From the IMG/VR virus record IMGVR_UViG_3300021375_001646, positions 1 through 51,810 of that record: DNA of 51,810 nt. The stretch is one strand, 5' to 3'. Below the pieces are notes generated by a model. The model worked only from the letters and a program-made list of their open reading frames with translations. It did no database searches and was not told the DNA's origin. A program made the translations under genes and the position numbers. Below are positions 4,436 through 43,265 of the stretch, one piece after another (position 1 is the stretch's first letter; each line of letters starts with the position of its first letter). This DNA comes from a virus.

Positions 4436-4469
4436 ATTTTATGGTTCTCCTTACTGTATTTACCGTTGA

Positions 4470-5112: not shown

Positions 5113-5197
5113 CCTTTTTCTTCAGAATCTATTAGTTTGTATCTATTACGTAATAACTAATGCTCAAGAAAATACTCAATATTAACAATGGAGAGTT

Positions 5198-5640: not shown

Positions 5641-5641
5641 T

Positions 5642-6185: not shown

Positions 6186-6191
6186 AGTCAC

Positions 6192-6672: not shown

Positions 6673-6677
6673 ACGAG

Positions 6678-6685
6678 TATTTATT
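6678..6685 (-). promoter_or_regulatory. late promoter element AATAAATA (leaderless type)
   Basis: The element is followed by CTCGT and then the ATG of the gene starting at 6672. The 5-nt gap puts the predicted start of transcription on the A of ATG. Confidence 0.65.
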
Positions 6686-7248: not shown

Positions 7249-8378
7249 AGTTTGAAGTCCTTAAATGTATCTTTGTTAATGTCTTGTTTAACACCGCCAA
7301 CGATATAACTTTCAACTTCTGTTTCTTGTGGGGCAACTTGTAGTCCTGCACTTGACAACCAATGTTGTGTCCACGGTAGCGGATTAGTATTAAGCGGACG
7401 ATCGTAAATCATATCAAGTCCTAGTGCTTTCAATCTCTTGTTAGCAATAAACTCAACATAAGCATGAAGAAGATTAGCATTAAGTCCAATCATACTTCCG
7501 TCTTTGAATAAGTAGTCCGCCCAATTCTTTTCTTCTGCAACACATTCACGCCATAGGTCATAAACTTCATCTTTAAGTTCTACTGCGATTTTAGCCATGT
7601 CTGGATCATCGTCACCTTTGGCCCAATGTTTGAGAATGTGTGTACTTAGGTTAAGGTGTGTTGCTTCATCTCTTGCAATAAGACTAATAATCTTAGCACT
7701 ACCTTCCATCATTTTTAATTCACCAAATGCAAACGTACATGCAAATGAAACATAAAAACGTAAACCTTCTAAAATGTTTACAGTCATCATTGCTTTGTAT
7801 AATGCTTTCTTAACATCATACAAAGTACCTTTGCCTTTATTAAAGTAATTGTTTGCAATGTCATTGAACTCGTCATAGTATTTTGTAACACTTTCAGCAC
7901 GTTCAAGAATCTTTTCATCATCAAGGATAGTATCAAATACTTCACCCGGATTAGCATATACATTTTTTACAATATGTGTATATGAACGTGAGTGGAGTGT
8001 TTCAAAAAAGTCCCAAGCAATAATACAACCTTCTAGTTCTGGATTTGAACAGTAAGGTAAAAAACTTAGACATGGTCCACGTCCTTGTACACTATCTAAT
8101 AGTGTTTGATATTTTAAGTTACTTGTAAAAATATGTTTTTGTTCATCACGAAGTTGTTGATAGTCACCTCTATCTTTTTGTAGACTAACTTCCTCTGGTC
8201 TCCAAAAGTAACCAAGCATTGTTTGGTTAAGTTTATCATACTCAGGATATTTGAATACATCATACCTTTGTGTGTTTTGATCTGCTCCAAAGAACATATG
8301 CTCTTTTGTAAAGTCAACCTTCTCTCGGTTAAAAACTGTCTTTGTCATCGCTTTAGTATTACCCTTCTTCCTCGTCAT
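7245..8378 (-). CDS. nrdB: ribonucleotide reductase class Ia small subunit (377 aa)
   Basis: This protein houses the di-iron/tyrosyl radical cofactor. Family features visible include the helix with AWDFFETLHSRSYTHI, the metal-ligand segment IARDEATHLNLS and the E/H residues around LEGLRFYVSFACTF. The C-terminal tail (KQDINKDTFKDFKL) is the short peptide that binds NrdA. Its length is normal. The first ATG lies 4 nt after AAGGA; a second ATG 11 codons in is an alternative. It lies between nrdA and glutaredoxin in one operon and makes deoxyribonucleotides for phage replication. Confidence 0.96.
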   Translation of the reverse strand: MTRKKGNTKAMTKTVFNREKVDFTKEHMFFGADQNTQRYDVFKYPEYDKLNQTMLGYFWRPEEVSLQKDRGDYQQLRDEQKHIFTSNLKYQTLLDSVQGRGPCLSFLPYCSNPELEGCIIAWDFFETLHSRSYTHIVKNVYANPGEVFDTILDDEKILERAESVTKYYDEFNDIANNYFNKGKGTLYDVKKALYKAMMTVNILEGLRFYVSFACTFAFGELKMMEGSAKIISLIARDEATHLNLSTHILKHWAKGDDDPDMAKIAVELKDEVYDLWRECVAEEKNWADYLFKDGSMIGLNANLLHAYVEFIANKRLKALGLDMIYDRPLNTNPLPWTQHWLSSAGLQVAPQETEVESYIVGGVKQDINKDTFKDFKL

Positions 8379-8384
8379 AAATCC

Positions 8385-10766: not shown

Positions 10767-10811
10767 TATGTCCTCTTTTCTATACGTTCTTTTATCATGT
10801 GTGCAGTCCAG

Positions 10812-10819
10812 TATTTAAT
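10812..10819 (-). promoter_or_regulatory. late-type promoter element ATTAAATA upstream of nrdA
   Basis: The predicted transcription start is about 40 nt before the nrdA ATG, leaving a normal leader with GAGGA before the start codon. Confidence 0.45.
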
Positions 10820-10826
10820 ACAAAAA

Positions 10827-11243
10827 CTACAATTCAATTGTTTCCTGGCAAACCATGCTATCTGATAGTTCACTACTTATACAAATATTATTGTTTTCAT
10901 AGTCAATAATATTGTCACAAACTTTAACTAGATTATAGTATCTTTTTGTCGTATGGTCTATATATATTTTTATCAAAACAGACGTTTTGGTAAACCTTGT
11001 AGTTAACTTCAGGGTATGTCCTATCATAAGGGGTATACCGACGGGACAATACCGGTTTTCTTTAATTAACTCCCAAGGCGTTGGCCACTGTTGAGAATTA
11101 AAAGGATTAAGATATTTGTCAGTAACAGGTGCAGTCTTCCAGAAGTCTAAAGATGCCTTATAAGGATCAACACACTCTTCGAGTGTATCTCTGAAAGTTC
11201 TCCATTGTGTTATACGTTCGTCAGTATTTGTATCTAAGAACAT
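10827..11243 (-). CDS. hypothetical protein downstream of the spike gene (138 aa)
   Basis: The gene begins directly after the stop of the beta-helix spike gene (no spacer), so it is probably translated from the same mRNA. The N-terminal half contains YLNPFNSQQWPTPWELIKEN, and the C-terminal half is beta-rich. The close coupling with a spike gene suggests a baseplate or fibre-attachment role. No family was firmly recognised. Confidence 0.65.
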   Translation of the reverse strand: MFLDTNTDERITQWRTFRDTLEECVDPYKASLDFWKTAPVTDKYLNPFNSQQWPTPWELIKENRYCPVGIPLMIGHTLKLTTRFTKTSVLIKIYIDHTTKRYYNLVKVCDNIIDYENNNICISSELSDSMVCQETIEL

Positions 11244-18913: not shown

Positions 18914-19789
18914 TTAACGTTTTGCTAGTTTTGCTCTATTATGTACTTGTTTTAACAAGTTTACGTATCCTGGACCTGCTTTTATAATGTCATTTACAAT
19001 ACGCATAACAGGAGCATATGCTTGTGCAAAACGTGGAGGAATACCTAAGCCTCTACTTGTCATGCTTAATACTTTGTATGCAAAAGGCAAGTCTTTATTA
19101 GGTACACCTAATAGTCTTAACATCTGTATATCTTTTGTGTCTGCTAGTACAGGATCACTAACACTTACTGTTGGCTCAGTGTCTCTAACTTGTGAACTTT
19201 CTAGGTCATAGTCTTTAACAAACAACACATAATAGTCAACTATGTCTGAGTTACGTCCTCTTGCTTTTAAAGCCATTTCTAATTCAGTAACTGCTTTACG
19301 CTTTTCTGTTGGAGTTAGTCTTCCGTAATTTGCAATACGTCTACGCAATCCACTGTAGCGACTGTTGGATAACCCATTGTCTATTTTTAACAAGTCGTTT
19401 GCATCTGCATAACTTGGATTGCTGTTAGTATAACTTCTTAACAATCTTTTTGCAGTTAGTGTAGGAAATGTAAAACGCTTACGCAACATCTTTGCTGATC
19501 TTGGGTCTTTTAGTTTTTCTATAATACGTTCATCGCCATCAATAATGTTTAACAAACAATGTAAGTCATTAGCACTACTTCTAAAGTTATTCCAGTTTTG
19601 CCATTTAAGTACTTGTTCACTGTATAACTTTGCAAAGCGTCTGCTTGGATAATGACGCATTACGTGTAATGCTAAAAAGTATAGTAGTACTAGATCAGAG
19701 GCATCAGTAAACGTTAATCTACTAACGCCATCTGAGTTGCGAATCATTTTGCCTTCTGTGATAAAATCTAAAAACTTAAACTCTGACAT
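18914..19789 (-). CDS. hypothetical helical protein (291 aa)
   Basis: The N-terminus MSEFKFLDFITEGKMIRN resembles the short x-F-x-x-F-I-x-E-type targeting segment of T4-like packaged proteins. The rest is helical and basic, with a leucine-rich first half and KVLSMTSRGLGIPPRFAQAY near the C-terminus. It overlaps the ligase-fold gene by 1 nt and is co-transcribed with it. Its function is unknown. Confidence 0.6.
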   Translation of the reverse strand: MSEFKFLDFITEGKMIRNSDGVSRLTFTDASDLVLLYFLALHVMRHYPSRRFAKLYSEQVLKWQNWNNFRSSANDLHCLLNIIDGDERIIEKLKDPRSAKMLRKRFTFPTLTAKRLLRSYTNSNPSYADANDLLKIDNGLSNSRYSGLRRRIANYGRLTPTEKRKAVTELEMALKARGRNSDIVDYYVLFVKDYDLESSQVRDTEPTVSVSDPVLADTKDIQMLRLLGVPNKDLPFAYKVLSMTSRGLGIPPRFAQAYAPVMRIVNDIIKAGPGYVNLLKQVHNRAKLAKR

Positions 19790-21024
19790 TAACCAAAGTC
19801 CTTAGGAGTAGTAAAGTTTCTGCGACTGAACTCAAGTCTATCAACAATCTTAACTGCTCCACCTGTATGATCAATTGCTACATAGCCTTCAGGTGAGCCT
19901 GCTTCATAGCCATCTGCTGTTTTATAAAAGTGTGCAATGCTTTCAATGTTGTTAAGTTTAGTAATAAAAATTTTCTTTAGGTTTGTAATCTCAGTCATAA
20001 AAATAATAATGCCTGACAAGCCTTTTCTGTTTGTGTTAATAAAGTTCATATTGTTTTGAATCTTTTGTAATCTATTTTTAACTGCTGGTTTCTCTGGATC
20101 TTGATTTTTAAGTTTTGCAATCTCACCTTCAATTCTTTCCTTGTACCAATCAATAAAGCCGTTTAAAAATTCGCCTGGATCGCCTGCTAGTTTACCTTGT
20201 CTAATATTTGTGTTAATCCAAATCTTAAAGTTTTTAATAAAATCATCATTTGATTTCATTGCTTCCCATACTGCATTTGGTACTGCTTTATAAGCCCCCA
20301 TTGCATCTGCCAAATCTTTTTTCACTTGTGCTGTTTCATCTTTTGTCATTAGCACTGAACCTGAAACGTCTTTAAAGAATGCATCGTCAAACCAAACATC
20401 GTTTGAACGTTTTAAGTTACTAACATTAACATCATAGTTTGCTGTTGCATCTGCTAATGTATTGCCTTCGTAGTTTGTATGAAAGACAATACCAAACTTT
20501 GCATTTCCAATACGCTTACCAATGTCGCTGTCTACTGGTACTGCATATGTAATAAGTTGTGGTTTGAAAGTGTACATCTTTTCGCCGTCAATTTCTTCTT
20601 CACGTCTTGAACTATCGTCAAACATAAAGTCGCCTTGTAGTACGCCTGTAATTCCTAGTTTGCTAAGATAATCATATGCTAGATGTAACTTTGATACTGC
20701 ACCTGACTCTCCGTATAGTCTGTCAATTTCTTCATGACTAGTTCCTAGTTTAGGACTAGCATTAAACACACCCTTTGTTCCTACAAAGAATTTTTTACTC
20801 TCAGGATCAACTCCGCATACGATTGCAGGAGCACCATCCCATTTTACACTTACTCTTAACTTTTTGTTAGTACGGCCTTTGAGCATATCTGCAAACAACA
20901 TCATTTGATTGATTGCATATTCAGCCCCTTCTTTACCACGGTTGAGTGCTTCTTCCTCAACGTGTTCCATATGTGTGTTCTTACCCTCGGCTTCTTGTAG
21001 CCTTATAATGTCTTCAATTAACAT
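19789..21024 (-). CDS. ligase-fold nucleotidyltransferase-like protein (411 aa)
   Basis: It begins MLIEDIIRLQEAEGKNTHME. At about residue 58 it has VSVKWDGAPAIVCG, a K-x-D-G motif I of covalent nucleotidyltransferases (DNA/RNA ligases, capping enzymes). Further possible motifs are GVLQGDFMFDD (IIIa-like), FGIVFHTNYEG (IV-like) and GYVAIDHTGGAVKIVDR (V-like, with the lysine). The spacing is compatible with an adenylation domain, although the usual E in motif IV is not certain. I recall such proteins as an uncharacterised family (DUF6267-type) in T4-like marine phages. Its substrate is unknown and it is distinct from the bona fide DNA ligase at 44-45 kb. Confidence 0.65.
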   Translation of the reverse strand: MLIEDIIRLQEAEGKNTHMEHVEEEALNRGKEGAEYAINQMMLFADMLKGRTNKKLRVSVKWDGAPAIVCGVDPESKKFFVGTKGVFNASPKLGTSHEEIDRLYGESGAVSKLHLAYDYLSKLGITGVLQGDFMFDDSSRREEEIDGEKMYTFKPQLITYAVPVDSDIGKRIGNAKFGIVFHTNYEGNTLADATANYDVNVSNLKRSNDVWFDDAFFKDVSGSVLMTKDETAQVKKDLADAMGAYKAVPNAVWEAMKSNDDFIKNFKIWINTNIRQGKLAGDPGEFLNGFIDWYKERIEGEIAKLKNQDPEKPAVKNRLQKIQNNMNFINTNRKGLSGIIIFMTEITNLKKIFITKLNNIESIAHFYKTADGYEAGSPEGYVAIDHTGGAVKIVDRLEFSRRNFTTPKDFG

Positions 21025-21360: not shown

Positions 21361-22170
21361 ATGGAAATACATACAAATAAATTAACTAAACCTATTATAA
21401 CATTAAATTTCAAAGAACGCAGTCTTTTATTTGCCGAACTAGCACAAATTGCATATTTGGAAAAGAAAAATGCTACAAAAATAGCAAAACAACTAGGTTT
21501 TACAACAATTGAATATTACGACTTAGACGGAGCACAGACATATCGCTTTATGAACAAGAATGATATTGTTATTGCTTGTAGAGGTACTGAACCAACAGAG
21601 TTCAATGATCTTAAAGCAGACCTACAGGCTTATCCAGTAAAATCAGAAACAATAAGTAGAGTACACAGAGGCTTCAAAGCAGAAGTAGATGAACTATGGC
21701 CTATGGTCAAAGAGGACATCACAAGAACACAGAACAAAAATAAAGAGTTATGGTTCTGTGGGCATTCACTAGGAGCGGCAATGGCTACTATTATGGCAAG
21801 TCGTTGTAAACACAACATTGACAATCTTGATCCTAACGAATTATATACATTCGGTTCCCCTAGAGTTGGCTGGCCAACTTATGTAGATAGTCTATCAGTT
21901 GTACATCATCGCTGGAAGAATAACAATGACATAGTAACTAGTGTTCCATTATGGTTAATGGGGTACAAGCATCACGGACAACAACACTACTTAAACACTT
22001 GGGGTAATGTTCGTAAGCCATCAGGATGGCAACTGTTCAAAGACAAGTTACGTGGTATGTGGCGCGGAATCAAAAAAGGTAAAATTGATAATTTCTCAGA
22101 TCATAGTATGACTGAGTATGTGAAGCATCTTGCAAAACACAGAGATGGTTCAGAAACTATTCAGATTTAG
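21361..22170 (+). CDS. class 3 lipase, alpha/beta hydrolase (269 aa)
   Basis: The lipase nucleophile elbow GHSLGAAMAT is at about residue 135, preceded by VIACRGTEPTEFND (oxyanion region) and VHRGFKAEVDELWPM. The Asp and His candidates are in NNNDIVTSVP and DNFSDHSMTEY. This matches the fungal-type class 3 lipase family. No signal peptide is visible, so it would act in the cytoplasm unless released by lysis. It is an isolated plus-strand gene. It could attack host membrane lipids or storage lipids; the substrate is not evident. Confidence 0.85.
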   Translation: MEIHTNKLTKPIITLNFKERSLLFAELAQIAYLEKKNATKIAKQLGFTTIEYYDLDGAQTYRFMNKNDIVIACRGTEPTEFNDLKADLQAYPVKSETISRVHRGFKAEVDELWPMVKEDITRTQNKNKELWFCGHSLGAAMATIMASRCKHNIDNLDPNELYTFGSPRVGWPTYVDSLSVVHHRWKNNNDIVTSVPLWLMGYKHHGQQHYLNTWGNVRKPSGWQLFKDKLRGMWRGIKKGKIDNFSDHSMTEYVKHLAKHRDGSETIQI

Positions 22171-25067: not shown

Positions 25068-26143
25068 TTAAACGAATTGCTTCGCTATTTCTCTTTCTGC
25101 TTCAGTAGCAAAATTTTCATCCCAGTTATCCAAATGCTTTTTCATAAAGCGATTGAACACTGGTGGTATTAATGCTAATGCAAACAATGTAAAGTAACCT
25201 ATACCTGTGTTAGGTGCACCTACTTCGTCTAGTTCCCAAAAGTGTGTTTCACCTCTGTCATGATGATCAGCCTGACGACCAATCTCTATAAAGAACCAAC
25301 TTGTGAACAATGTAGAATTATCCCAACTGTGTCTGTAGTCTATTGGTTCACTTTTAACACGTACCAAACCATAATGTTCTAGATAGTTAAGTGCTTCTAG
25401 TTCAAAGTTTGATATCATCCATACCAATGCCATACATGCAACACCTGCCCATCCACCTGCTAAAAAGAACAAGAAGATAGTAGGGAAACTCATCATGTAA
25501 CCTCTTATCCATCTATTACTTAAAGATAGAAAAGGTTTATCTAAACGTTTCAATCTACTCTTTTCCATTTCAAATAAGAACTTACTTTGTCCTAGATGAC
25601 TTTTAAAGAAATGTTCGTATAGATTACGTCCACGTGGTGCAGTTGCAGGATCATCTTCACTTGCTAATTCCAAATGATGATTGTACACATGAGCATAACA
25701 AAAATGTGCTGAACCTGAAAGACCCATCATCCAACGACTTATTATAAAACTAAAGCCTTTGGTGTGTGATAGTTCATGTCCATATATTATACCTATGCCT
25801 GCAAATATACCTGTTGATAGAACAGCACCTAACAACTCTACTCCCCACATGCCTGAATATATCTGGTATGCAAGTCCAAGTTGTAGTGCTACGAAAACTG
25901 GTAACATTGAATACATTACTGCATTTTGTAACCATGGGATGCCATAAGGTTCACCATTCTCATCAAAGCCTGCTCCTGAGGTTTTGCGAGTTACTAGTGT
26001 ATCAAATATGATGCCTATTCCCAATAGGCCCACACCTGTCCATGTCCATGCACCACCTGCCATCACTCCTGCGAGTGCAACAAGTATCAATGCCGGAGCA
26101 ATGAAATACCTTATATTGATTAGTACTTTTTTACGATATGCAT
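25068..26143 (-). CDS. alkB: AlkB-type alkane monooxygenase, start region needs a -1 frameshift (358 aa if joined)
   Basis: This is a membrane di-iron hydroxylase with about six hydrophobic helices. The histidine boxes match alkane 1-monooxygenase: GHELSHTKGF, HVYNHHLELASEDDPATAPRG, and ADHHDRGETHFWEL in the position of the LQRHSDHHA box. NYLEHYGLVR is the AlkB-specific NYIEHYGL signature, followed by RHSWDNS. The only good ribosome site (AGGAGG) precedes ATG 26143, whose frame reads MHIVKKY and stops. A slippery A-AAA-AAG at codons 5-6 would shift -1 into the long frame (KKVLINIRYFIAPALIL). Without a shift, translation must start at a TTG (26090) or ATT with poor signals. A homopolymer sequencing error is the alternative. 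The known family oxidises terminal C-H of alkanes or fatty-acid-like chains. Confidence 0.88.
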
Positions 26144-32687: not shown

Positions 32688-33789
32688 TGCTCACCTCTAG
32701 TAATGGAACAACATTGCTTGTTCCTGTTTTTAATAATCCGTAATCTGTTATTTTCCATCCAACTTTAGTTAGTTGATGATAATATTTGTGTTGTGCATTT
32801 AGAAGATCAATTGGTATAAAGTTATAGTTGTGATTAACTTTAACATTATTTGAAACCCATTTAAAATAATCAAAATAATCTTTGTTTGCTTGTATGTCTA
32901 ATACATTTTGATTGTTGTTTACCCATTTGGTATACAAATCTACTTTGCCTTGTATCATATCACTTAGGTGTTTAGTAGCATCAAACTCTTTGAATTGATG
33001 ATAGGGTCTGTTGTTTACATCAATACTTTCTATAAGTGTAAGAAAGAATCCGTTGTGTTGTAGATAATTACTTTCTCTACACACATAGAATACATCACTG
33101 TCAAAACTTGCAATGTGTTCTGCTTGTGGAATGTCTGTGTCTAGTTTCTTTGTAACTTCATTAAAGTCATGATGTGAACAAGTGTAACCTATTCCGTTAT
33201 CTTCAACCCACTTGCTTAACAAGTCAAGACTGTTGTTGTCCTGTGTTGTTAAAATAAACTTTATCTTTTGTATTCCGTTACGCTCATTAAGTTCTTTGAG
33301 CATAGCAAATATTTCTGTCTTATTAACTTTGTCTAGCCAACCTGTGCTAAAACTAATCTCTTGTATCTTTGTATCTGCAGATAGTTCATTAACAAACAAC
33401 GGTTGTGTTCTAATAAAGTTATTATCAGTCATGCTTCCCCAAATGAATCTATGACTGTTTTGTTTGTACCAATCATATAAATGCGTTTGTTCATGCTTCA
33501 TCCAAAACAAATCATCAATGTTACTAATATGTTTGAAGTGTTCAAATACTTTAGTCCACTGTTGTTCTATGTCTGTGTTGATCTCTTTGGGTATAAAGTT
33601 TTTAAAATAAGGCATTGCTTCCTTAAAATGCTTTTCAGTATAGCATACTTTACAACCAGCAAAACAATTATATCTACCTAATACACTAAAGATAACTTCA
33701 TTGTGTACATTAAGCAAAGAATCGTTTTCATAAAAATACTGTATGAAACTATTTCTATTTGGTGCCGGTGTGTCTACTATTCTATCCAT
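32677..33789 (-). CDS. divergent radical-SAM-like enzyme B (370 aa)
   Basis: The start MDRIVDTPAPNRNS at 33789 is chosen for the TAATG overlap with the upstream stop and AGGA before it. Near residue 40 it has NCFAGCKVCYTE, matching C-x3-C-x2-C. The rest of the barrel is weakly conserved and no C-terminal SPASM cysteines are visible. It is probably a reduced or specialised radical-SAM partner of enzymes A, C and D, or it may lack activity. Confidence 0.72.
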   Translation of the reverse strand: MDRIVDTPAPNRNSFIQYFYENDSLLNVHNEVIFSVLGRYNCFAGCKVCYTEKHFKEAMPYFKNFIPKEINTDIEQQWTKVFEHFKHISNIDDLFWMKHEQTHLYDWYKQNSHRFIWGSMTDNNFIRTQPLFVNELSADTKIQEISFSTGWLDKVNKTEIFAMLKELNERNGIQKIKFILTTQDNNSLDLLSKWVEDNGIGYTCSHHDFNEVTKKLDTDIPQAEHIASFDSDVFYVCRESNYLQHNGFFLTLIESIDVNNRPYHQFKEFDATKHLSDMIQGKVDLYTKWVNNNQNVLDIQANKDYFDYFKWVSNNVKVNHNYNFIPIDLLNAQHKYYHQLTKVGWKITDYGLLKTGTSNVVPLLEVSNDS

Positions 33790-34877
33790 TATATTCCTAC
33801 CCATTCAAACACTGAGTCTTTTTGCTGTAGTTTGTAACAATAAGCAATACTTGCATCAACCATTTGATAAAACTGTATACAACTAGTTCCAGGTGGTCGA
33901 TCAAACATCTTATATAGATATTTAAGTCCGCAACTATCTTTACTTGGACAGTTATAACATTCAGATCGTATTAGGTTCTTTTCGTCTTGTTGTCTATATA
34001 ACTCTGGTGTATACTCTAATGTACCATCAGTCCATTGCCCTACTCTAAATTCATTTCGTTTGTATTCTAAAAAGTCATACTCAGGATAAATGTATCCATC
34101 TGGTGACAGTATCATCTTGTGATGGTTGTCATAGTAAAACTTATCTATAGCACTTAGGTTTCCGTATATACCATCTACATAAATGTTAATACGTTTAGTA
34201 TAAAGTATTGTAATAAACTGTAAGAAGTTATCAAACCATTCACCTAAATGAATATCATCAATAATAACTTCAAACTTTCGAGCACCACGCTTGTGTCTTA
34301 ATGGTATAAGATTAATTGTATTACATTTTGTCTTTTGACAAGTCCTAATAATTTCTGTAATAACATCTAAATTAAAACAACGTTTATCATCTGTAGGCAT
34401 AACATATTGCCATTGCATAGTAGCACCGCATTCGTGTATGATGTTTGCCATCTCTACAACATCGACATACTCTCTGTTTTGTTTTTGAAATGCAAAATCG
34501 TAGGATATTGTAAACTTTATATATGGTCCCCATTTCTTTAAGAACTCTTTGTTCTCTGCAATAAGACTACCATTAGTAGTAATACAAAACTTTCTATCTG
34601 TATTTTTAATATACTTGTCAAACAATTTTGTAAACAAGTCGTCCATTCTGCTTATGAATAGGAAAGGCTCGCCGCCATGCACACTGATGATATCTAAACC
34701 TTTGCAGTGAGGCATTGTTTTATCAAAGAAGTCTACAACAAGATCAACCCAAGCATGTTTAAGGGTTTGCCCTCCGACATCTTTAGCAATATATTCTCTA
34801 TCACAATAGGAACAATCAAAATTGCATGTGTTTCCTAAATAGACTGAAATATGTTTTAGTTTATCAAGACCATCCAT
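33789..34877 (-). CDS. radical-SAM/SPASM-type enzyme C, predicted leaderless (362 aa)
   Basis: CNFDCSYC is near residue 18, with ISVHGGEPFLFISRMDDL (GGE motif) at 64 and CITTNGSLI at 97. The C-terminus has CYNCPSKDSCGLKYLYKMF and a later TSCIQFY, a truncated SPASM/twitch pattern. The ATG is 6 nt after TATAAT of a TTGCTC-17-TATAAT promoter, so it may be leaderless. It overlaps the next gene as TAATG. Confidence 0.9.
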   Translation of the reverse strand: MDGLDKLKHISVYLGNTCNFDCSYCDREYIAKDVGGQTLKHAWVDLVVDFFDKTMPHCKGLDIISVHGGEPFLFISRMDDLFTKLFDKYIKNTDRKFCITTNGSLIAENKEFLKKWGPYIKFTISYDFAFQKQNREYVDVVEMANIIHECGATMQWQYVMPTDDKRCFNLDVITEIIRTCQKTKCNTINLIPLRHKRGARKFEVIIDDIHLGEWFDNFLQFITILYTKRINIYVDGIYGNLSAIDKFYYDNHHKMILSPDGYIYPEYDFLEYKRNEFRVGQWTDGTLEYTPELYRQQDEKNLIRSECYNCPSKDSCGLKYLYKMFDRPPGTSCIQFYQMVDASIAYCYKLQQKDSVFEWVGI

Positions 34878-34883
34878 ACTACT

Positions 34884-34912
34884 ATTATAACATCTTTTTA
34901 GTTGCCGAGCAA
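34884..34912 (-). promoter_or_regulatory. internal promoter before radical-SAM gene C
   Basis: TTGCTC (34907-34912), 17 bp, TATAAT (34884-34889), then 6 nt to the ATG. It lies across the stop of gene D and would start a leaderless mRNA for C, B, A, DUF3050 and infA. Confidence 0.55.
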
Positions 34913-36673
34913 CTTTTCTTTTACTGTTTGGATGTTTGAACCTGATAATGGCTTTTTATTATGTAATATTAGGAAGTTTAAGAATACCAAATAAGAACAT
35001 CTTGCATAAAAGTTTAAGTCTGTAACTGCTTTACTTAATTCATTTGGTATATTGGCTTTCTCTGTTAGCCATTCGTATAGTTCTTTAATAGAAATACTGT
35101 CTTCGTTACAGTATCCAATAACATCTTCCAAAAATACATGGAAGTCTGGTTCGCCATTGTTATTGTCCATCTTGTAACCATCATTGATCATTGCTTGCCA
35201 TGCCGCATATAGTTGTCCACTGCTTGGAATCTTTTTCCATGCTTCGTTTGTATCTTCTCTTTTAGCATGTACATCTGAAAACATTTTAAACATAACGTGT
35301 AAAGGTGACTTGATGAATACTTTTTCTTCACCTTCTTTTTCACAAGTGTCAATGGTCATTTGATATGTTTGTTGGAACTTTTTAATTTCAATATCGTCTT
35401 GTAGGTCAACATATAATTTTACAATCTTTTGACACATATCATCCGGACGGAACAAACGTGTACCTGTGTCCATGTTTCCTGCTGGACATTGGTAACATGC
35501 ATTTTTATAATCACATGTACGACACTGTTCTTCTTCCTCAACCATTTTACTAAATGATTGTTGAAAGCCTTTGTATCTATCTAAGTAAAGTCTATCTTCA
35601 AATACATTACCTAAGATTGTTTTACCTGCAGGTCCTGCTTTTTGATTTGTAAAGAAGTAACAACCTGAGTAGTCACCTGATGCGTCAATAGCAACCATGT
35701 CACTACCTACCATACAGTTGTTTTCACCTTTTTGTCCAACGCCTTCTGAAAAGTGTATTCCTAGATCAAAATAGTTTTCTAATGTCCATAGAATATCTTG
35801 ATGAAGTGTGTTCCATTGTTCATCAGTCCAAGCAATAAATCCTCTTGAACTATCTAAAATTAACGGGTGTACAACAATGTTCCTTACACCAGCATCATAT
35901 ACTGCTTTTACAAACTCTTTAAAGTAAGGAGCGTTCTCTTTAGCAAGAGTACAACGCATTGTAATTCTATTACCTTTTTTAGCATGTTCTGGAATCTTAT
36001 CTATTGTTCTTAATAGAGCGTCAATTCTTTTTTGACCAATTTCTCTATGGTCAACTTCTGCTCTAATAGTATCAAGACTACAAAGAATATGTGTAAACGG
36101 ATATGAATAATATTCTTCTAAGAAGTCTTCAGTCATTAACAATCCGTTGGTAACACAACTAATTTGTTGCTTGGTGTAACCTCTTGATTGTTCTGTAAGA
36201 TAATCTTTGTTTTCTCTTAAGAAGCCTAATATTAAATCTTTATGAATTAAAGGTTCGCCGCCAAAGAATTGAAACATTTTATGTTCATGCTTACTTACGT
36301 TGAGTAAGAAGTTATATGCTTCTAGTAAACTGTCTGGAGTAAAGCGACCAAAGTCTCTGTTATGTTGTTCATAACAATAAGAACAACTTAGGTTACAAGC
36401 ATTAGTAAGAATAACATTCATCTGTTGCAAGTCTTTAAACAAGTAACTTGCTTCAGTCATTTTAACTACTGTTTCGCCTGCGTCTGGAAGTACACTTACA
36501 CGTTTGTTAATCTTATCATTACCTTTAGGAGTAATAATTAATTCACTGTGTGTTTCAAACTTGCCATTAGCATCTACTGTAACTGTAGCAATGTGATCTT
36601 TATGACGCTTCTTTTGAAGGTCATTGAGGTTGTTTTTAAAGTTAAACTGATTCGGGTCTGTAGTAAATGCCAT
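34898..36673 (-). CDS. radical-SAM/SPASM enzyme D (591 aa)
   Basis: CNLSCSYCYEQ is near residue 93, with FFGGEPLIHKDL at 140 and VTNGLLMTEDFL at 173. The SPASM region shows NNCMVGSDMVAIDASGDYSG, then CYFF, CRTCDYKNACYQCPAGN and MCQKIV. This is the complete pattern of peptide-modifying maturases. A ~165-residue C-terminal helical extension follows, unusual for the family and possibly a substrate or virion-binding domain. It has its own late element (AATAAATA, just inside the next gene end) and a leader with CTTGT...ACAAG pairing before the ATG. Confidence 0.93.
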   Translation of the reverse strand: MAFTTDPNQFNFKNNLNDLQKKRHKDHIATVTVDANGKFETHSELIITPKGNDKINKRVSVLPDAGETVVKMTEASYLFKDLQQMNVILTNACNLSCSYCYEQHNRDFGRFTPDSLLEAYNFLLNVSKHEHKMFQFFGGEPLIHKDLILGFLRENKDYLTEQSRGYTKQQISCVTNGLLMTEDFLEEYYSYPFTHILCSLDTIRAEVDHREIGQKRIDALLRTIDKIPEHAKKGNRITMRCTLAKENAPYFKEFVKAVYDAGVRNIVVHPLILDSSRGFIAWTDEQWNTLHQDILWTLENYFDLGIHFSEGVGQKGENNCMVGSDMVAIDASGDYSGCYFFTNQKAGPAGKTILGNVFEDRLYLDRYKGFQQSFSKMVEEEEQCRTCDYKNACYQCPAGNMDTGTRLFRPDDMCQKIVKLYVDLQDDIEIKKFQQTYQMTIDTCEKEGEEKVFIKSPLHVMFKMFSDVHAKREDTNEAWKKIPSSGQLYAAWQAMINDGYKMDNNNGEPDFHVFLEDVIGYCNEDSISIKELYEWLTEKANIPNELSKAVTDLNFYARCSYLVFLNFLILHNKKPLSGSNIQTVKEKLLGN

Positions 36674-36711: not shown

Positions 36712-37695
36712 TTACTCTCTATGAGCAGTATAGTTCATTGCGATACGTGTTGACTCGTGAAAGTCTAATTCTGTATTTTGGACAATTTGTAAACTTACAT
36801 ATTTAGGAGAAGTGTCTGCACTGTCTTTCCATGTAAATTGTAAGTTACCATTATCTAATTTTGACCAATTTAAATTAGTCTTAACAGATAGGGTTACTGC
36901 TGAAGTATCAATACCGATATTTCTAAGTTCGCCGTTAGCAAATGGTTTAATAGTAAATGTGTTCTTAGGACAACTAATAACTCCATTGCCGTGTTCGTTA
37001 GCACCAATCATAGTTGGACCAATAAGCACACCACCTAAACCATGATAGTTGTAAGGTCCTTCTAATATTCCTGCTACAGAATGACCACCTGCTGTAAAAC
37101 TTAGGTCTTCCATCATTTGTACTGCTTCACCATTGATGTTAATGATGTAAGTGTCTGGTAATCCTGCAATTTTACTTACAGAATAAAATACTTTAATTTC
37201 TTTTTTGTCTGCATTGTTACTGAATACAACACTGTTGTCTACTGCATTAATTACAGTTGCCCAATCACCGTCAGCATCTTTTTTCCTTACAAGAAACTTT
37301 GCTTCCATTAAACTCGTACTAATTTCAATTGTATCATCATTTGTAATAGGATATGCAAATATTAAGTTATCACTTGTAGTAGCATCTTTTTCTGTGAAGT
37401 ATTTTACAATAGCGTCTAAGTCTAAACCAATCTCTGCTCTAGCACCTTTGTACTGAGTCATTGTAAAATCATAACCCATTGTAATTGAATCTGTAATGTC
37501 ACTATCTGCTAGTGTTTTCTTAAGTCTAACTACTCTTGGATCCAATGCCATGTAAGTACTTACAAATGGTTCCTTCATACTGTATTCTGGAATACCAGCA
37601 TCGTTAGTTTTCTTTTCAATTGTTAATGCAGACATTTGTGAAACAAATGACCTAGTTTGTCTTGGGGGTGTTCCGTTAATAAAAAATTTAGCCAT
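36712..37695 (-). CDS. putative virion protein with paralogous C-terminal domain (327 aa)
   Basis: The start MAKFFINGTPPRQTRSFVSQ at 37695 has AGAGGA upstream and a TAATG overlap. Its last ~60 residues (SVKTNLNWSKLDNGNLQFTW ... VSLQIVQNTELDFHESTRI) resemble the end of the 311-residue protein at 38316. The body is beta-rich with SYK-like and Gly-rich loops (GGHSVAGILEGPYNYHGLGG). It looks structural. Its place directly upstream of the radical-SAM genes makes it a candidate substrate. Confidence 0.6.
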   Translation of the reverse strand: MAKFFINGTPPRQTRSFVSQMSALTIEKKTNDAGIPEYSMKEPFVSTYMALDPRVVRLKKTLADSDITDSITMGYDFTMTQYKGARAEIGLDLDAIVKYFTEKDATTSDNLIFAYPITNDDTIEISTSLMEAKFLVRKKDADGDWATVINAVDNSVVFSNNADKKEIKVFYSVSKIAGLPDTYIININGEAVQMMEDLSFTAGGHSVAGILEGPYNYHGLGGVLIGPTMIGANEHGNGVISCPKNTFTIKPFANGELRNIGIDTSAVTLSVKTNLNWSKLDNGNLQFTWKDSADTSPKYVSLQIVQNTELDFHESTRIAMNYTAHRE

Positions 37696-37892
37696 TATAT
37701 TGTTCCTCTTTGACACTGGCATTGACATTCACAAACAGTATTGTAATCATCAAAATACTGGTGTGTGTGGTTACGCATATCCTTTAAGATAGTCAGCATT
37801 TGTCTAAATGTTTGTGCTTCAATTTGTTCACCTGAACTCTTTGAATCTGCTTCCGAAGGGCTTTTGCTAGGTCCACCTGTATTCTCTGCCAT
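37695..37892 (-). CDS. small protein with C-x-C-x-C-x-C tail, candidate modified peptide (65 aa)
   Basis: A polar N-terminus (MAENTGGPSKSPSEADSKSS) and a helix (TFRQMLTILKDMRNHTHQYF) lead to a C-terminal VCECQCQCQRGTI with alternating cysteines. The layout of leader, helix and Cys-rich core next to four radical-SAM genes resembles a RiPP precursor. It could equally be a small virion or metal-binding protein; I recall similar Cys-tailed proteins among T4-like marine phages. It has AGGAG and a late element (TATAAATA) upstream. Confidence 0.65.
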   Translation of the reverse strand: MAENTGGPSKSPSEADSKSSGEQIEAQTFRQMLTILKDMRNHTHQYFDDYNTVCECQCQCQRGTI

Positions 37893-38309: not shown

Positions 38310-38317
38310 TATTTATC
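38310..38317 (-). promoter_or_regulatory. late promoter element GATAAATA (leaderless type)
   Basis: It is followed by TTAGT and ATG at 38304. It overlaps the stop of the upstream gene. Confidence 0.65.
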
Positions 38318-39251
38318 AAACTACCACGATAGTTTTTTGTAGTGATAGGTTAACATGTTGAAAATCAAAGTAAGCATTTGCCATTATTTTAAACTGTACC
38401 CAGCCTACTGTGCTATTATCTACGTCAAACATATAATAATTGCCATCTTTTTTCCAATCCATATTACTTCTTACTTTAAGTGTAATATCATCACGGTTGA
38501 TTAGTGTTTGGTTGAATTCATCTTGTGTAAATCTTACTGCTCTACTTTGCCCAAAAGGATCTATACCTACTTGTGCTTTTCTAGCATTAATCATATCATG
38601 TCCAATCTTAACACAATCTTTATAACTTGGTTGAATAATGAACTCACGTAAACTAATATCATGTTGTTCTAATGTTCTTATCATCCAGTCATTGTTTATA
38701 ATTGTATTAATCATCTGTGGCATTTCAACCATAGTATTATTAGCAATCATATAATAAGTGTCTACAATTCCTTTGATTGGTAACATTACAAAATACGAAA
38801 AGAAATCAACAGACTCGCCTGTGCTAATTGTTTCACCTGTTTCTAAATCAATTAAACTATCGTCATCAAAGTTTCTACCATAAAACTTTGCTCTTTCTAG
38901 TGTAAGTCTTTTGTTGAAAGGTTCGTTAAGAATAGTACCGTAAGTAATAAACTTTTCTGTATTGCTGTTTTGACTGTGTAACATTTCTACACATTTGTCT
39001 AAGAATATACTGTTGCCAAATACACTTTCATCGTTGTCAAATGATCCTATGTGTATAGCATTATCACTTGCAAACAATTTATATTTTGCAGGGTCGCTTC
39101 GTTGCCAAAGTTTAAATCTAGGCTGTCGTTGTATAATATTACTCTCAACTCTTGTTTTGGTCATTACAAGTCTAGAGTTTAAATGTGTTTGGATATCAAC
39201 CCAATTTCGAGTTGGTGCCACATCCAAGTAGTCAATCAGTAGTCGCTTCAT
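38316..39251 (-). CDS. putative virion protein, leaderless start (311 aa)
   Basis: The ATG at 39251 is exactly 5 nt after the late element TGTAAATA. The start is MKRLLIDYLDVAPTRNWVDI. The C-terminal part (TLKVRSNMDWKKDGNYYMFD ... VQFKIMANAYFDFQHVNLSL) resembles the end of the 327-residue protein at 36712. It is the first gene of the late unit that continues through small virion-type genes into the radical-SAM block. Confidence 0.6.
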   Translation of the reverse strand: MKRLLIDYLDVAPTRNWVDIQTHLNSRLVMTKTRVESNIIQRQPRFKLWQRSDPAKYKLFASDNAIHIGSFDNDESVFGNSIFLDKCVEMLHSQNSNTEKFITYGTILNEPFNKRLTLERAKFYGRNFDDDSLIDLETGETISTGESVDFFSYFVMLPIKGIVDTYYMIANNTMVEMPQMINTIINNDWMIRTLEQHDISLREFIIQPSYKDCVKIGHDMINARKAQVGIDPFGQSRAVRFTQDEFNQTLINRDDITLKVRSNMDWKKDGNYYMFDVDNSTVGWVQFKIMANAYFDFQHVNLSLQKTIVVV

Positions 39252-39290: not shown

Positions 39291-40487
39291 GTGAACAGAG
39301 TAGCAGTAACAGGAATGGGTATGATCGATGCACTAGGAGCAAATCCTAATGAATGCTTTGATGCCATGTTGGATACAAACTATACCAACCCGCCTGCATT
39401 TCATAATTCAAGATTAGAACGACACAGACAACAACCTGTGTTTCCTGTGGACAAAGACAAACTTGTACTACCGGAACTAAGACCGGCTGTAGTTAAAAAC
39501 TTAGAACCTGCAACACTTTTTGCATTACATACAGTTGAACAAGCACTTCAACAAAGTGGCGTTGAGCATAGCGATAATGTTGCTGTGATTGGCAGTAGTG
39601 TTACATCAGGCAATCATGTTGTGTTTGACTTGTATCCTATCTTACATAGCGAAACAGGTAGAGCAAGGCCTAGACAACTTTTAACAACTACAAAAGATTT
39701 TATGGCAGGTTACATCTGTCAACACTACGGATACAAAGGACCTAACACATCGATGTATGCCGCATGTGCAACAAGTTTGTTCAGCATAGATTACGCAATG
39801 AGATTTGTAGACGACTACGACTATGTTGTTTGTACAGTAAGCGATCAAGGTGTTAATGATACTGACGTTGGCTTCTTTAAACAACTAGGAGCAATAGGAT
39901 CACATTCAGTTCCGTTTGACGATGACAGAGATGGATTCATAATGGGAGAAGGTGCTGGCACATTTATTTTAGAGTCAGAAGAAAAAGCAAAGGCTAGAGG
40001 AGCAGATATTATTGCATACCTTTATCCTGCAGGCTTTGGTAGTGATGGTACAAGTCCTACTGCACCTGACCCTGACGGTGCTGGAGCAAAGTTAAGTATG
40101 AAACATGCACTAAAAAATAATGCTATTGGATCTTACATTTCTTTTGTAAATGCACATGGAACTTCTACTCCAGTTGGAGATGAAATAGAATACAACGCAA
40201 TTAAAGAAGTGTTAGGAAATGTTCCTATTGTTAGTAATAAAAGTAAAATAGGACATACAATGGGTGCTTGTGGAATAATAGAAGCAATGTACACAATCAA
40301 AAGTTTACAAACAGGTAAGATACCAAACAACCATAACATATCTAAATGTAGTTTTGACACACAAGGTATGATTACAAACAAAGACAGAACTATCACAGGT
40401 ACAATGGCACTGAACAATAGTTTTGGCTTTGGCGGTAAGTGTGCATCACAATTGATACAGGTAGAAAAAAGCACGGATAATTATTAG
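39291..40487 (+). CDS. beta-ketoacyl-ACP synthase, KAS II type (398 aa)
   Basis: It starts MNRVAVTGMGMIDALGANPN, as in FabF. The C-H-H catalytic triad is intact: YAACATSLFSIDYA, VNAHGTSTPVGDEIEY and KSKIGHTMGACGIIEA. The NNSFGFGGKCAS finger and GEGAGTFILESEEKAKARGA are also present. Its length is normal. The start is GTG with AAGGGG 11 nt upstream. It condenses malonyl-ACP with acyl-ACP, extending fatty acids or a polyketide-like chain. With the hydratase and desaturase nearby, it suggests phage control of fatty-acid composition. Confidence 0.93.
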   Translation: MNRVAVTGMGMIDALGANPNECFDAMLDTNYTNPPAFHNSRLERHRQQPVFPVDKDKLVLPELRPAVVKNLEPATLFALHTVEQALQQSGVEHSDNVAVIGSSVTSGNHVVFDLYPILHSETGRARPRQLLTTTKDFMAGYICQHYGYKGPNTSMYAACATSLFSIDYAMRFVDDYDYVVCTVSDQGVNDTDVGFFKQLGAIGSHSVPFDDDRDGFIMGEGAGTFILESEEKAKARGADIIAYLYPAGFGSDGTSPTAPDPDGAGAKLSMKHALKNNAIGSYISFVNAHGTSTPVGDEIEYNAIKEVLGNVPIVSNKSKIGHTMGACGIIEAMYTIKSLQTGKIPNNHNISKCSFDTQGMITNKDRTITGTMALNNSFGFGGKCASQLIQVEKSTDNY

Positions 40488-40488
40488 T

Positions 40489-40833
40489 ATGAAAGATTTT
40501 AACGTTTTAACTGAAGGTAGATATGAACCTGCGTCTGATATTGAATATAAGATATTAAGACAACACATAAAGAACGACCAAGTACATTTAGTATTCACAG
40601 GAGTACTAAAAACAAAAGACAAGTATATCAAACAACAGACAGGTGTTATTATGCATACCCTAGAAGCATATACAAACACTGACACTGACATTGAATTGTA
40701 TATTGAAAAGAATAGATGGAAAGAAGTTATTGCAAGTGAAATTGCTAATCAAGTAAACGATCCTATGTTTGCTAGATATAACTTTTCATTCCTAAACAGC
40801 GTACATAATAGTGCAATTAAGACGAGAGCATAA
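40489..40833 (+). CDS. hypothetical protein between ketoacyl synthase and hydroxylase (114 aa)
   Basis: It begins MKDFNVLTEGRYEPASDIEY and has an alpha/beta composition with HLVFTGVLKTKDKYIKQQTG and a helical C-terminus. It is coupled downstream by TAATG to the 2OG-hydroxylase-like gene and starts 1 nt after the synthase stop. No family was recognised; it may be an accessory of the lipid or hydroxylase pathway. Confidence 0.6.
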   Translation: MKDFNVLTEGRYEPASDIEYKILRQHIKNDQVHLVFTGVLKTKDKYIKQQTGVIMHTLEAYTNTDTDIELYIEKNRWKEVIASEIANQVNDPMFARYNFSFLNSVHNSAIKTRA

Positions 40834-41642
40834 TGAATAAGAGTGTAGTAGACAGAGTAACATTAAAAGCATACGATCAAGATCAGATTAGAAAAGACTT
40901 TGAACAAAAGATACTTCCTAATATGCCCCGCAAGGTTCCATTGTTGAATGCAACTTTGCCAACTAATGCAGACGATCATCATATGTTATATACACATCGT
41001 CCTGAACTAGAAGATTATGTTAAGGACACAATATTCGAAGACATACTAATGGACTTGCCTTTCAAGAGAGGTAGAGCAACATTCATTCATCAACTTCCTG
41101 GAATGACTTTACGTTTTCACAGAGACCCTGATGACAAGTATCACATAGCAATTAATGATCCGCCAGGTGCTTTCTTTTTTGATATGGAATTGCAAACAGG
41201 ATATAGAGTACCTTGTGATGGACACTTGTATAAACTAAACACTGCGGCAAGATATCATACTGCCGTAAATGCAGATTGTAAAGACAGAACACATCTTGTT
41301 ATTTGTCCTTACTTCTTTGAAGACGATTTTAATAAGCCAACTACAACTGCAACCTTTGGATTTGATCACGGCAATGCAACTATGCCTGATGTGTTTACAA
41401 GTATAGCAACTCCAAACAATAGTATTGAACAAGGTTTCTGTGTTGAATGGATTGCTTCAGTGTTTCACGATCCAACATGCAAGAACATTTGGGGAGAGAA
41501 TACAAGTTCGGGACGTAGATATCATATTGAATTTACAGATGCAAACAATTTAGAAAATGTAATGACTAGTGCTTTGAACTTAGAAGCAACTCATGCCATG
41601 GAACAGTTTGGTATATCAGTCGAAAATAATTTTACTAATTAA
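40833..41642 (+). CDS. 2-oxoglutarate/Fe(II) Asp/Asn-hydroxylase-like protein (269 aa)
   Basis: The double-stranded beta-helix core shows LRFHRDPDDKYHIAINDPPG (H-x-D) and ARYHTAVNADCKDRTHLVIC (distal His and Arg), the typical metal and 2OG ligands. The layout resembles aspartyl/asparaginyl beta-hydroxylases, though divergent. It could hydroxylate a protein or an amino acid. It is coupled to the 114-residue gene. Its 3' end overlaps the convergent MaoC-like gene by 8 bp. Confidence 0.75.
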   Translation: MNKSVVDRVTLKAYDQDQIRKDFEQKILPNMPRKVPLLNATLPTNADDHHMLYTHRPELEDYVKDTIFEDILMDLPFKRGRATFIHQLPGMTLRFHRDPDDKYHIAINDPPGAFFFDMELQTGYRVPCDGHLYKLNTAARYHTAVNADCKDRTHLVICPYFFEDDFNKPTTTATFGFDHGNATMPDVFTSIATPNNSIEQGFCVEWIASVFHDPTCKNIWGENTSSGRRYHIEFTDANNLENVMTSALNLEATHAMEQFGISVENNFTN

Positions 41643-41970
41643 GTTTTATAGTAGTCATTTCTATTGTTTGCTTAACACTATCCCCAACAGAAATAGTAAT
41701 ATGGTTAACACAAACTCTTGACTTCTCTTTAAGTACATGATGTTTAATATCGATTGTATCACCTATGTACACTGCATTATGATACCTTACGTTTAGTTTT
41801 GCTAACGCCCAATAAGGTTTAGGATTACGTGTGATCATAGCAGTAACTAGAATACCAGGAGCAACTGGATCTCCATACTTTATAGTATCTTCTTCGTGGT
41901 GTATTGGATTGGTGTCTTCAATAACATCACAATATCTTTTAACTAGATCGGGTGTGATTTCTATCTTCAT
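41635..41970 (-). CDS. MaoC-like hot-dog enoyl/3-hydroxyacyl hydratase, leaderless start (111 aa)
   Basis: The hydratase-2 motif is present: YCDVIEDTNPIHHEEDTIKY then GDPVAPGILVTAMITR, containing the catalytic Asp and His (D-x-N-x-x-H). Its length of 111 residues is on the short side for MaoC (about 130-150). It would add or remove water on acyl-thioesters. The ATG is exactly 5 nt after the late element GTTAAATA. It is divergent from the hydroxylase at 42010. Confidence 0.8.
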   Translation of the reverse strand: MKIEITPDLVKRYCDVIEDTNPIHHEEDTIKYGDPVAPGILVTAMITRNPKPYWALAKLNVRYHNAVYIGDTIDIKHHVLKEKSRVCVNHITISVGDSVKQTIEMTTIKLN

Positions 41971-41975
41971 AAAAC

Positions 41976-41983
41976 TATTTAAC
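41976..41983 (-). promoter_or_regulatory. late promoter element GTTAAATA (leaderless type)
   Basis: It is followed by GTTTT and ATG at 41970. Confidence 0.6.
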
Positions 41984-41996
41984 TGCCTCTAGCCCT

Positions 41997-42004
41997 AGTA
42001 AATA
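41997..42004 (+). promoter_or_regulatory. late promoter element AGTAAATA (leaderless type)
   Basis: It is followed by CATTT and ATG at 42010. It forms a divergent pair with the element at 41976-41983. Confidence 0.6.
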
Positions 42005-42009
42005 CATTT

Positions 42010-42531
42010 ATGAAACAGCAAGACTTTATCCAAAACTTATTAGACAACACACAAGAAATCTTTGATGAATATAAAAATTGTAGACACAGAGATATTCCAT
42101 TACCTGATTGGAAGGAAGAACAAGAAGTGCATTTGCATTGGAGGGCATTACCAATATGGTGGGTACAAAAACCTTGTAAGCCTGTGCAGAAAGCATTACC
42201 ATTAACAACAAAACTATTAACAGATGGTCCTGGACACAGAGCAACTGCATGGGTTAAGTTAGAAAGTCATAGTAAGACTCCGCAACATGCTCATCATGAT
42301 TGGGGTAATAAGATTATACTTCATTTGCCTATGATAGTACCTGACGGTGATGTAGGCTTTTGGGTTGATGGAAATATTCACAGATGGAAAGTAGGAGAAC
42401 TATTTGCTTTCAAAAGCAATCAAGAACACTACGGATTTAATAACACAGACGAAACTAGAGTAATGCTTGTTATGGAGTTTGATGATACTTGGGAACAGAC
42501 GTTGCGTCCTTATATGACAGTGACTCCTTAG
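42010..42531 (+). CDS. aspartyl/asparaginyl beta-hydroxylase (173 aa)
   Basis: A clear Asp/Asn hydroxylase core: LESHSKTPQHAHHDWGNKI, ILHLPMIVPDGDVGFWVDG, HRWKVGELFAFKSNQEHYGF then NNTDETRVMLVMEF. It shows the H...H and distal Arg ligands of the 2OG family, with the usual missing Asp at position 2. Animal and bacterial relatives hydroxylate Asp/Asn side chains in proteins. It is a separate unit with a leaderless start. The 3' end overlaps the desaturase gene on the opposite strand by 62 bp. Confidence 0.85.
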   Translation: MKQQDFIQNLLDNTQEIFDEYKNCRHRDIPLPDWKEEQEVHLHWRALPIWWVQKPCKPVQKALPLTTKLLTDGPGHRATAWVKLESHSKTPQHAHHDWGNKIILHLPMIVPDGDVGFWVDGNIHRWKVGELFAFKSNQEHYGFNNTDETRVMLVMEFDDTWEQTLRPYMTVTP

Positions 42532-43252
42532 TCCACCCAAACAAACTAACAAGTCTTCCACTTGGATCCCACATATTGTAGTTTAACTTCATAGGACCAT
42601 AATGATGTGTTCCGTGTAAACATTCACTAAAAGCAAAAGGCCAAAATAATTTATTGTCAACTGGCTTACCTTTCTTGTGTAATGCTACATTAACAAAGAA
42701 GTTGATCAGTATAATACTTAAAGCAACAGGAGTTGCCCATATAGTTAAGAACCATTGTAGTCCTAGTGTATTATAAACTATTGCAAATAATAATAGATTA
42801 AAAGTAATTGCAATAATACCTTCCCACTTACCTATACTAATAAAATAAGGAACACGTAGTCTATCAGCAACACGTTTTGGATCTATCTTTTCAAACCTCC
42901 ACAATGATGAAGTAACATACCAAACACCTTTGTGTTTAGGAGAGTGTGGATCATTTTCTGTATCTGTATATTTGTGATGTTGTCTGTGCAAAGCCGCATA
43001 TCCAATTGGGTTACCTGACAATGCAAAAACACTTATTGTTGATAATGCTTTTTGTAACCAACTAGGCGGAGACCACAGTTCATGTGATGCCCATCTATGT
43101 AAGAATAACCCTTGTACAACATCTGCTAGGAACCAATACATACCTACTGCTAACAATGCATTTACCCATGTAAGATTATAGATCCACACAGGTAGGAATG
43201 CACAATATATAAAAAATATAATAATTGTAGATATACGATTGAACCTGTCCAT
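42470..43252 (-). CDS. fatty-acid desaturase, acyl-CoA delta-9 type, leaderless start (260 aa)
   Basis: This is an integral membrane di-iron enzyme. All three histidine boxes are present: HRWASH, HRQHHKYTDTENDPHSP and HGTHHYGP, with four membrane helices around them. The pattern matches acyl-CoA/acyl-lipid delta-9 desaturases. It is a little shorter than usual (~300). Its ATG is exactly 5 nt after the late element ATTAAATA. It would add double bonds to host membrane fatty acids, perhaps increasing fluidity during infection. Confidence 0.93.
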   Translation of the reverse strand: MDRFNRISTIIIFFIYCAFLPVWIYNLTWVNALLAVGMYWFLADVVQGLFLHRWASHELWSPPSWLQKALSTISVFALSGNPIGYAALHRQHHKYTDTENDPHSPKHKGVWYVTSSLWRFEKIDPKRVADRLRVPYFISIGKWEGIIAITFNLLLFAIVYNTLGLQWFLTIWATPVALSIILINFFVNVALHKKGKPVDNKLFWPFAFSECLHGTHHYGPMKLNYNMWDPSGRLVSLFGWTKESLSYKDATSVPKYHQTP

Positions 43253-43257
43253 AACGG

Positions 43258-43265
43258 TATTTAAT
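43258..43265 (-). promoter_or_regulatory. late promoter element ATTAAATA (leaderless type)
   Basis: It is followed by CCGTT and ATG at 43252. Confidence 0.65.

Follow-up and report, generated by a model that had tools for sequence, protein, structure and literature searches.

Lipid genes known from phages are mostly single desaturases. Virus fatty-acid desaturases (FADs) have been described from Arctic brines (PMC7300359), and cyanophages carry lipid desaturases (Roitman et al. 2018, as cited in PMC7300359). Ketosynthase genes are also on record: freshwater SAR11 myophages (fonsimyophages, group PMP-D) carry fabF and a stearoyl-CoA desaturase (SCD) gene (Zaragoza-Solas et al. 2020, PMC7029224), and acpP–fabF–fabG occurs in Rhodobacteraceae prophages, with FabF as a viral auxiliary gene (PMC8224337). 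The fonsimyophage paper lists its genes only, and we found no family or operon analysis there. Here we analyse IMG/VR record IMGVR_UViG_3300021375_001646 (positions 1 to 51,810, the whole of which we call the window), a 51.8-kb fragment of a T4-type marine myovirus, in which an original prediction had placed a mini fatty-acid pathway formed by a ketoacyl synthase (KAS), a MaoC-like hydratase and a desaturase. These three genes do lie within 4 kb, at or very near the predicted positions and with their catalytic residues kept, but they do not make up one pathway. The explanation that we favour, at a probability of roughly 0.55, is a variable accessory region holding separately acquired cassettes, in which KAS and desaturase would plug into the fatty-acid and membrane-lipid synthesis of the host instead of forming a self-contained pathway. 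Overlooked until now were two PF05118-type 2-oxoglutarate oxygenases and a gene of 114 amino acids (aa) interspersed among the three enzymes, as was the position of MaoC and desaturase on the strand opposite KAS:

39291–40487, plus strand: KAS, a FabF-type beta-ketoacyl-acyl carrier protein (ACP) synthase (398 aa; GTG start with AAGGGG before it; Cys159, His289, Lys317, His322)
40489–40833, plus strand: u114, function unassigned (114 aa; starts 1 nucleotide (nt) past the KAS stop codon; no PF00550 match)
40833–41642, plus strand: OG1, 2-oxoglutarate/Fe(II) beta-hydroxylase-like (269 aa; start overlaps the u114 stop; matches the beta-hydroxylase PDB 7v4f, E=4e-7)
41635–41970, minus strand: MaoC-like (hot-dog) hydratase/dehydratase (111 aa; D19/H24 dyad; TAAATA exactly 5 nt before ATG)
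42010–42531, plus strand: OG2, a PF05118 aspartyl/asparaginyl hydroxylase-like oxygenase (173 aa; weak LpxO/OlsC matches; TAAATA 5 nt before ATG)
42470–43252, minus strand: SCD-like membrane fatty-acid desaturase (260 aa; full His-box set; TAAATA 5 nt before ATG; 3' end overlaps the 3' end of OG2)

The viral ketosynthase and its gene neighbours

KAS is predicted to be a working elongating ketosynthase of a FabF-like, virus-only clade. Pfam scores (84 bits for PF00109, 95 bits for PF02801) lie far above cut-off, and Cys159, His289, Lys317 and His322, plus a carboxy-terminal FGG (380–382), are invariant in an alignment of 16 viral homologues; a bacterial alignment places the catalytic residues on the Cys-His-Lys-His set of FabF/FabB. 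The AlphaFold model (predicted local distance difference test, pLDDT, 86) matches FabF/FabB structures with template-modelling (TM) scores of 0.84–0.90. The curated FabF model TIGR03150 gives 257 bits against a cut-off of 494, marking the enzyme as FabF-like and not a FabF orthologue, and the viral clade differs strongly from FabF, with other sequence in place of the GSGxGG segment and of the first gating region.

Single-protein scans of IMG/VR returned no close relatives of KAS or OG1, and the KAS family was revealed only by a profile scan, which confirmed 471 hits; the top 80 went into the analysis, and lineages were collapsed at 80% identity. The best 80 of the 471 are 38–48% identical to the window KAS, bacterial FabF/FabB ~30%, and the best cellular sequences 35–37% among the matches listed and a 289-genome class scan. 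A maximum-likelihood tree resolves 25 viral KAS lineages as one clade on a long stem, apart from 21 cellular-type sequences (support 100/100), with a quick tree in agreement; KAS does not group with cellular FabF. Cellular members of the clade have not been found so far, in a cellular search that was not exhaustive, and no true member was recognised among 50,697 annotated phage records, such that the clade appears, so far, to be confined to viruses (uncultivated phages). Our literature search found no description of a virus-only KAS clade or of its operons. The KAS matches from annotated phages were rejected as relatives, being bacterial contamination-like, plus a divergent Manatee Spring phage protein on a very long branch. 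INPHARED matches H1–H8 and H10–H28 are bacterial-type FabF/FabB in unannotated 'phage' records (Listeria, Staphylococcus, Enterococcus, Acinetobacter, gut) that probably are, or contain, bacterial DNA. Membership of the clade could serve as a marker that tells genuine phage fab genes from bacterial contaminants, which are common in phage databases.

Across the 24 other lineages, KAS repeatedly adjoins candidate acyl-modifying enzymes. A desaturase gene follows directly after KAS or overlaps it, on the same strand, in 8 of the 24 and in at least three different gene contexts, and a 2-oxoglutarate oxygenase does likewise in three further lineages. The oxygenases downstream of KAS belong to PF05118 (twice in L017) or are 2OG-FeII_Oxy_3-like (the L018 and L026 groups); the L036/L048/L050 group has its desaturase ~3 kb upstream and PF05118 genes several kb downstream. 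Within the window, KAS, u114 and OG1 form a tight same-strand run with ends touching or overlapping, which looks like one operon. We take the recurrence of KAS–desaturase and KAS–oxygenase arrangements as the strongest pointer to joint work on acyl chains, with mere co-presence a weaker one: 27 of 50 KAS-bearing viral records have a desaturase, as does 1 of 50 that bear ribonucleotide reductase; speH (PF02675) accompanies KAS in 6 of the 9 KAS-bearing records tested. As far as gene order can tell, a phage module of KAS plus acyl-modifying enzymes is real. The mini-pathway claim thereby keeps a sound part, in that KAS and desaturase are each intact acyl-chain enzymes that pair in other lineages, and the claim that the phage changes host acyl chains remains a reasonable reading of KAS and adjoining desaturases in unrelated phages.

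Several observations weigh against this reading. No desaturase or recognised oxygenase lies directly downstream in 13 of the 24 KAS lineages. T4-like desaturases are common without KAS (17 of 50 ligase-bearing records hold a distant desaturase, 0 of 50 KAS), making the co-presence of KAS and desaturase weak (27/50 versus 17/50, Fisher P=0.07), and the desaturase profile was itself built partly from KAS neighbours. Ten KAS-adjacent desaturases form one clade (100/98) with the desaturase of the window outside it, at an exact place left unsure by long branches; the tree thus rejects the window desaturase as the KAS-paired one. Lastly, the exchange of the GSGxGG region is specific to the viruses and might reflect another substrate.

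Separate origins and expression signals

The window desaturase is well formed. It scores 42 bits against PF00487 (cut-off 29.7) and keeps three His boxes plus the extra dimetal-site ligands N188 and H192; H52, H57, H89, H92, H93, N188, H192, H213, H216 and H217 are all conserved in phage relatives. The only significant PDB matches to its model are mouse/human SCD1 (4ymk, 4zyo and 6wf2; TMq 0.71–0.72, E ~1e-5). A single-protein scan of IMG/VR with this sequence returned three desaturases.

A syntenic relative, the 50-kb record L282 (ligase 80% identical, radical-SAM genes 71–77% identical), holds in the same region an OG2 homologue (47%), a desaturase (30%) and the radical-SAM genes, with KAS and MaoC nowhere in the record. 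In Pelagibacter phage Mosig, tandem desaturase and PF05118 genes adjoin radical-SAM genes and lie near aminotransferase and carbamoyltransferase genes, close to tail fibres, and in L004 and L006 the desaturase is next to a radical-SAM gene. Two further features lie to the left of KAS:

38316–39251, minus strand: paralogue of 36712–37728, function unassigned; left border of the plus-strand cassette, common to L282
30488–36673, minus strand: neighbouring cassette of a DUF3050 protein, three radical-SAM proteins (two SPASM-like) and a 375-aa unknown

L282 keeps two of these radical-SAM genes (33789–36673) and the 375-aa gene in synteny with its desaturase, all three at 71–77%. The DUF3050 protein is haem-oxygenase-like and possibly diiron, two of the radical-SAM proteins are SPASM/PapB-like and the 375-aa unknown is phrog_36229.

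MaoC has a different context again. The protein is short (111 aa) and just passes PF01575 (28.6 bits, cut-off 27), with its D19-x-N21-P-x-H24 hydratase motif aligned to PDB 3ir3 (3-hydroxyacyl-thioester dehydratase 2, E=1.6e-4). None of 49 KAS-bearing viral records contains MaoC (0/49), and it was rejected as a regular KAS partner on this count. The only viral relatives found, two proteins 58% identical, sit in a sugar-nucleotide/radical-SAM cassette that lacks KAS and desaturase, with nucleotidyltransferase, HAD hydrolase, aldolase and radical-SAM genes as neighbours. In L377/L378 the cassette spans 2027–11027 and encodes B12-type and SPASM-like radical-SAM proteins, the MaoC-like protein, a nucleotidyltransferase, a HAD hydrolase and a GatZ/KbaZ-like aldolase; it looks like a phage sugar-nucleotide or glycan pathway. 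Judged by these neighbourhoods, a place in a cassette of the neighbouring glycan/radical-SAM type is more probable for MaoC than a role in fatty-acid elongation.

The synteny of L282 without KAS or MaoC, the desaturase tree and the MaoC context together identify the window region as a mosaic of separate pieces. The simplest account has desaturase, OG2 and radical-SAM genes in place first, with KAS–u114–OG1 and MaoC later gained or lost. Unlinking in relatives, which the original prediction had named as evidence against its pathway, is seen for MaoC and for the window's own desaturase, and not for KAS and desaturases generally.

The T4-late-promoter-like core TAAATA stands exactly 5 nt before ATG at 10 places in the window (start codons at 42010, 50590, 50123, 43252, 41970, 39251, 38304, 17941, 17178 and 6672), compared with 0.9 on average for every other spacing between 0 and 30 (Poisson P 4e-8), and would at this distance give leaderless late mRNAs. 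Desaturase, OG2 and MaoC have this box and are probably expressed late. KAS has a Shine-Dalgarno-like AAGGGG and no TAAATA box, and might therefore be expressed separately from these three. The 5-nt spacing is also found at the Mosig desaturase and nitroreductase genes, and 4 times in 18 in L283. Scans of the region for sigma-70 promoters and terminators were no richer than shuffles.

Several parts that a self-contained type II fatty-acid synthesis pathway would need were looked for in the 51.8-kb fragment and not found: PF00550 (ACP) gave no match, and the larger open reading frames of the window that were scanned included no ketoreductase (SDR/FabG) and no enoyl reductase (FabI); u114 was rejected as an ACP for want of a PF00550 match. 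The cluster and its immediate neighbours yielded no recognisable acyltransferase or glycosyltransferase. OG2 meets PF05118 and scores 39 and 37 bits against the curated LpxO and OlsC models (cut-offs 500 and 450).

Elsewhere the window encodes a class I ribonucleotide reductase, ATP-dependent DNA ligase, GroES, tail fibre and tail spike, and a 411-aa protein (19789–21024) that has ~40% identical counterparts in Methylophilales phage Melnitz and in cyanophages. A permuted (two-piece), alphaproteobacterial transfer-messenger RNA (4589–5110, tag ANDNYAPEMALAA) points to an alphaproteobacterial host or ancestor host. The class 3 lipase (21361–22170) and the complete AlkB-type alkane monooxygenase (25068–26090; PDB 8sbb, alkane 1-monooxygenase, E=6e-29) had both been called correctly. 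The two lie close together again in IMG/VR relatives L314 and L316 (AlkB 86–87% identity, lipase 69–70%), and the annotated phage records with AlkB are only large, bacterial-looking Acinetobacter contigs. The suggestion of a lipid made for interaction with the phage envelope does not apply to a T4-type tailed phage.

A proposed mechanism and its alternatives

In the mechanism that we infer for activity, substrates, timing and benefit to the phage, KAS would draw on host malonyl-ACP and acyl-ACP, and host FabG, FabZ/FabA and FabI would complete each elongation cycle, the phage contributing no more than an additional or substitute condensing step, on which chain length and flux depend. O2-dependent enzymes could then alter the KAS products and host acyl chains in general: the SCD-like desaturase would put one double bond into long acyl chains, and the PF05118-type OG1 and OG2 may hydroxylate acyl chains, like the acyl hydroxylases LpxO and OlsC of that family, but could equally act on proteins or small molecules. 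Late expression would then change a lipid of the membrane or outer membrane while virions assemble and the cell lyses. The combination suggests that such phages may rewrite host membrane lipids; if so, phages of abundant aquatic bacteria would steer which acyl chains an infected cell makes, beyond the degree of saturation, and KAS with desaturase would offer a concrete, testable pair for how lytic phages change membranes. A bolder form holds that the deep virus-only KAS clade, distributed among many uncultivated T4-type phages of aquatic habitats and repeatedly operonic with O2-dependent acyl modifiers (desaturase or 2-oxoglutarate oxygenase), is a phage acyl-remodelling module that seizes the chain-length step and produces a lipid foreign to the uninfected host; we put this forward tentatively, and would sooner bet against it than on it.

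The cluster as a whole might instead be a glycan, lipid-A or surface-modifying island, placing a special acyl group on lipopolysaccharide (LPS) or surface glycan for superinfection exclusion or receptor change. PF05118 includes LpxO and OlsC, which OG2 weakly matches, the relatives of MaoC keep the company of nucleotidyltransferase, HAD-hydrolase, aldolase and radical-SAM genes, and the Mosig desaturase and PF05118 genes occupy the tail-fibre-proximal setting described above; pelagimyophage variable regions likewise hold LPS genes, tail fibres and radical-SAM cassettes (PMC7029224). An island of this kind is nonetheless unlikely: neither an acyltransferase nor a glycosyltransferase was recognised there, the pieces are separable in relatives, and KAS–desaturase pairs elsewhere are usually flanked by replication genes, not glycan genes.

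We give just as small a chance to unrelated passengers in a hypervariable region, each with a task of its own: acyl synthesis for KAS, a glycan route for MaoC, and peptides or small molecules as targets of the hydroxylases and radical-SAM enzymes. Such independence would fit the opposite strands and separate TAAATA boxes, the lack of KAS and MaoC in L282, the lack of MaoC from KAS records and the position of the window desaturase outside the KAS-paired clade, but it sits poorly with the operonic KAS–u114–OG1 run and with the repeated joining of KAS to a desaturase or 2-oxoglutarate oxygenase in other lineages.

More doubtful still is that KAS makes a non-housekeeping acyl or polyketide-like product and not membrane fatty acids. 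The replaced GSGxGG segment and first gating region, and the shortfall against the curated FabF model, are what such an enzyme might show; all catalytic residues and the FGG are kept, however, the nearest folds are the housekeeping FabF/FabB, fatty-acid desaturases are its repeated partners, and the fragment yielded no dedicated ACP, malonyl transferase or reductase. Contamination or misassembly, in which a fab gene of the host was joined to viral sequence, brings to mind the many bacterial 'FabF' matches in phage databases (such as the unannotated Listeria and Staphylococcus records) but is rejected here, as KAS falls in a virus-only clade, lies between phage genes on flanks homologous in L282 and shares the base composition of its surroundings.

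Comparison with known systems

The favoured reading, of KAS and desaturase feeding into host lipid synthesis from a mosaic region, finds its nearest parallel in the fonsimyophages, which are likewise T4-type and combine a FabF homologue, an SCD-like desaturase, a 2-oxoglutarate oxygenase and speH (PMC7029224). The window phage differs in having MaoC, OG1, OG2 and three radical-SAM genes, and its KAS may belong to another lineage than the published one. Resemblance to the pelagimyophage host-recognition cluster, which is bounded by VrlC and gp14, is in content only (tail fibres, radical-SAM cassettes), as neither VrlC nor gp14 was located in the window.

With bacterial FabF/FabB (KAS II/KAS I), the window KAS shares fold, length, the Cys-His-Lys-His set and the C-terminal FGG loop, and differs in its low identity (~30%), its separate long-stem clade and its replaced GSGxGG segment. 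The Rhodobacteraceae prophages copy a host-like operon order, whereas here a virus-only KAS occurs without fabG or acpP in the fragment. The Arctic-brine and cyanophage enzymes are also SCD-type membrane His-box desaturases on phage genomes, proposed to raise membrane unsaturation (PMC7300359); by contrast, the KAS-paired desaturase clade shares an operon with a phage KAS, and the window desaturase is divergent and placed beside radical-SAM and PF05118 genes. OG2 is of the same Pfam family as LpxO/OlsC, weakly matched over part of both models, yet falls far below their curated cut-offs. Taken singly, these genes are ordinary kinds of phage auxiliary genes; what sets the system apart is the virus-only KAS clade and its KAS–desaturase and KAS–oxygenase operons.

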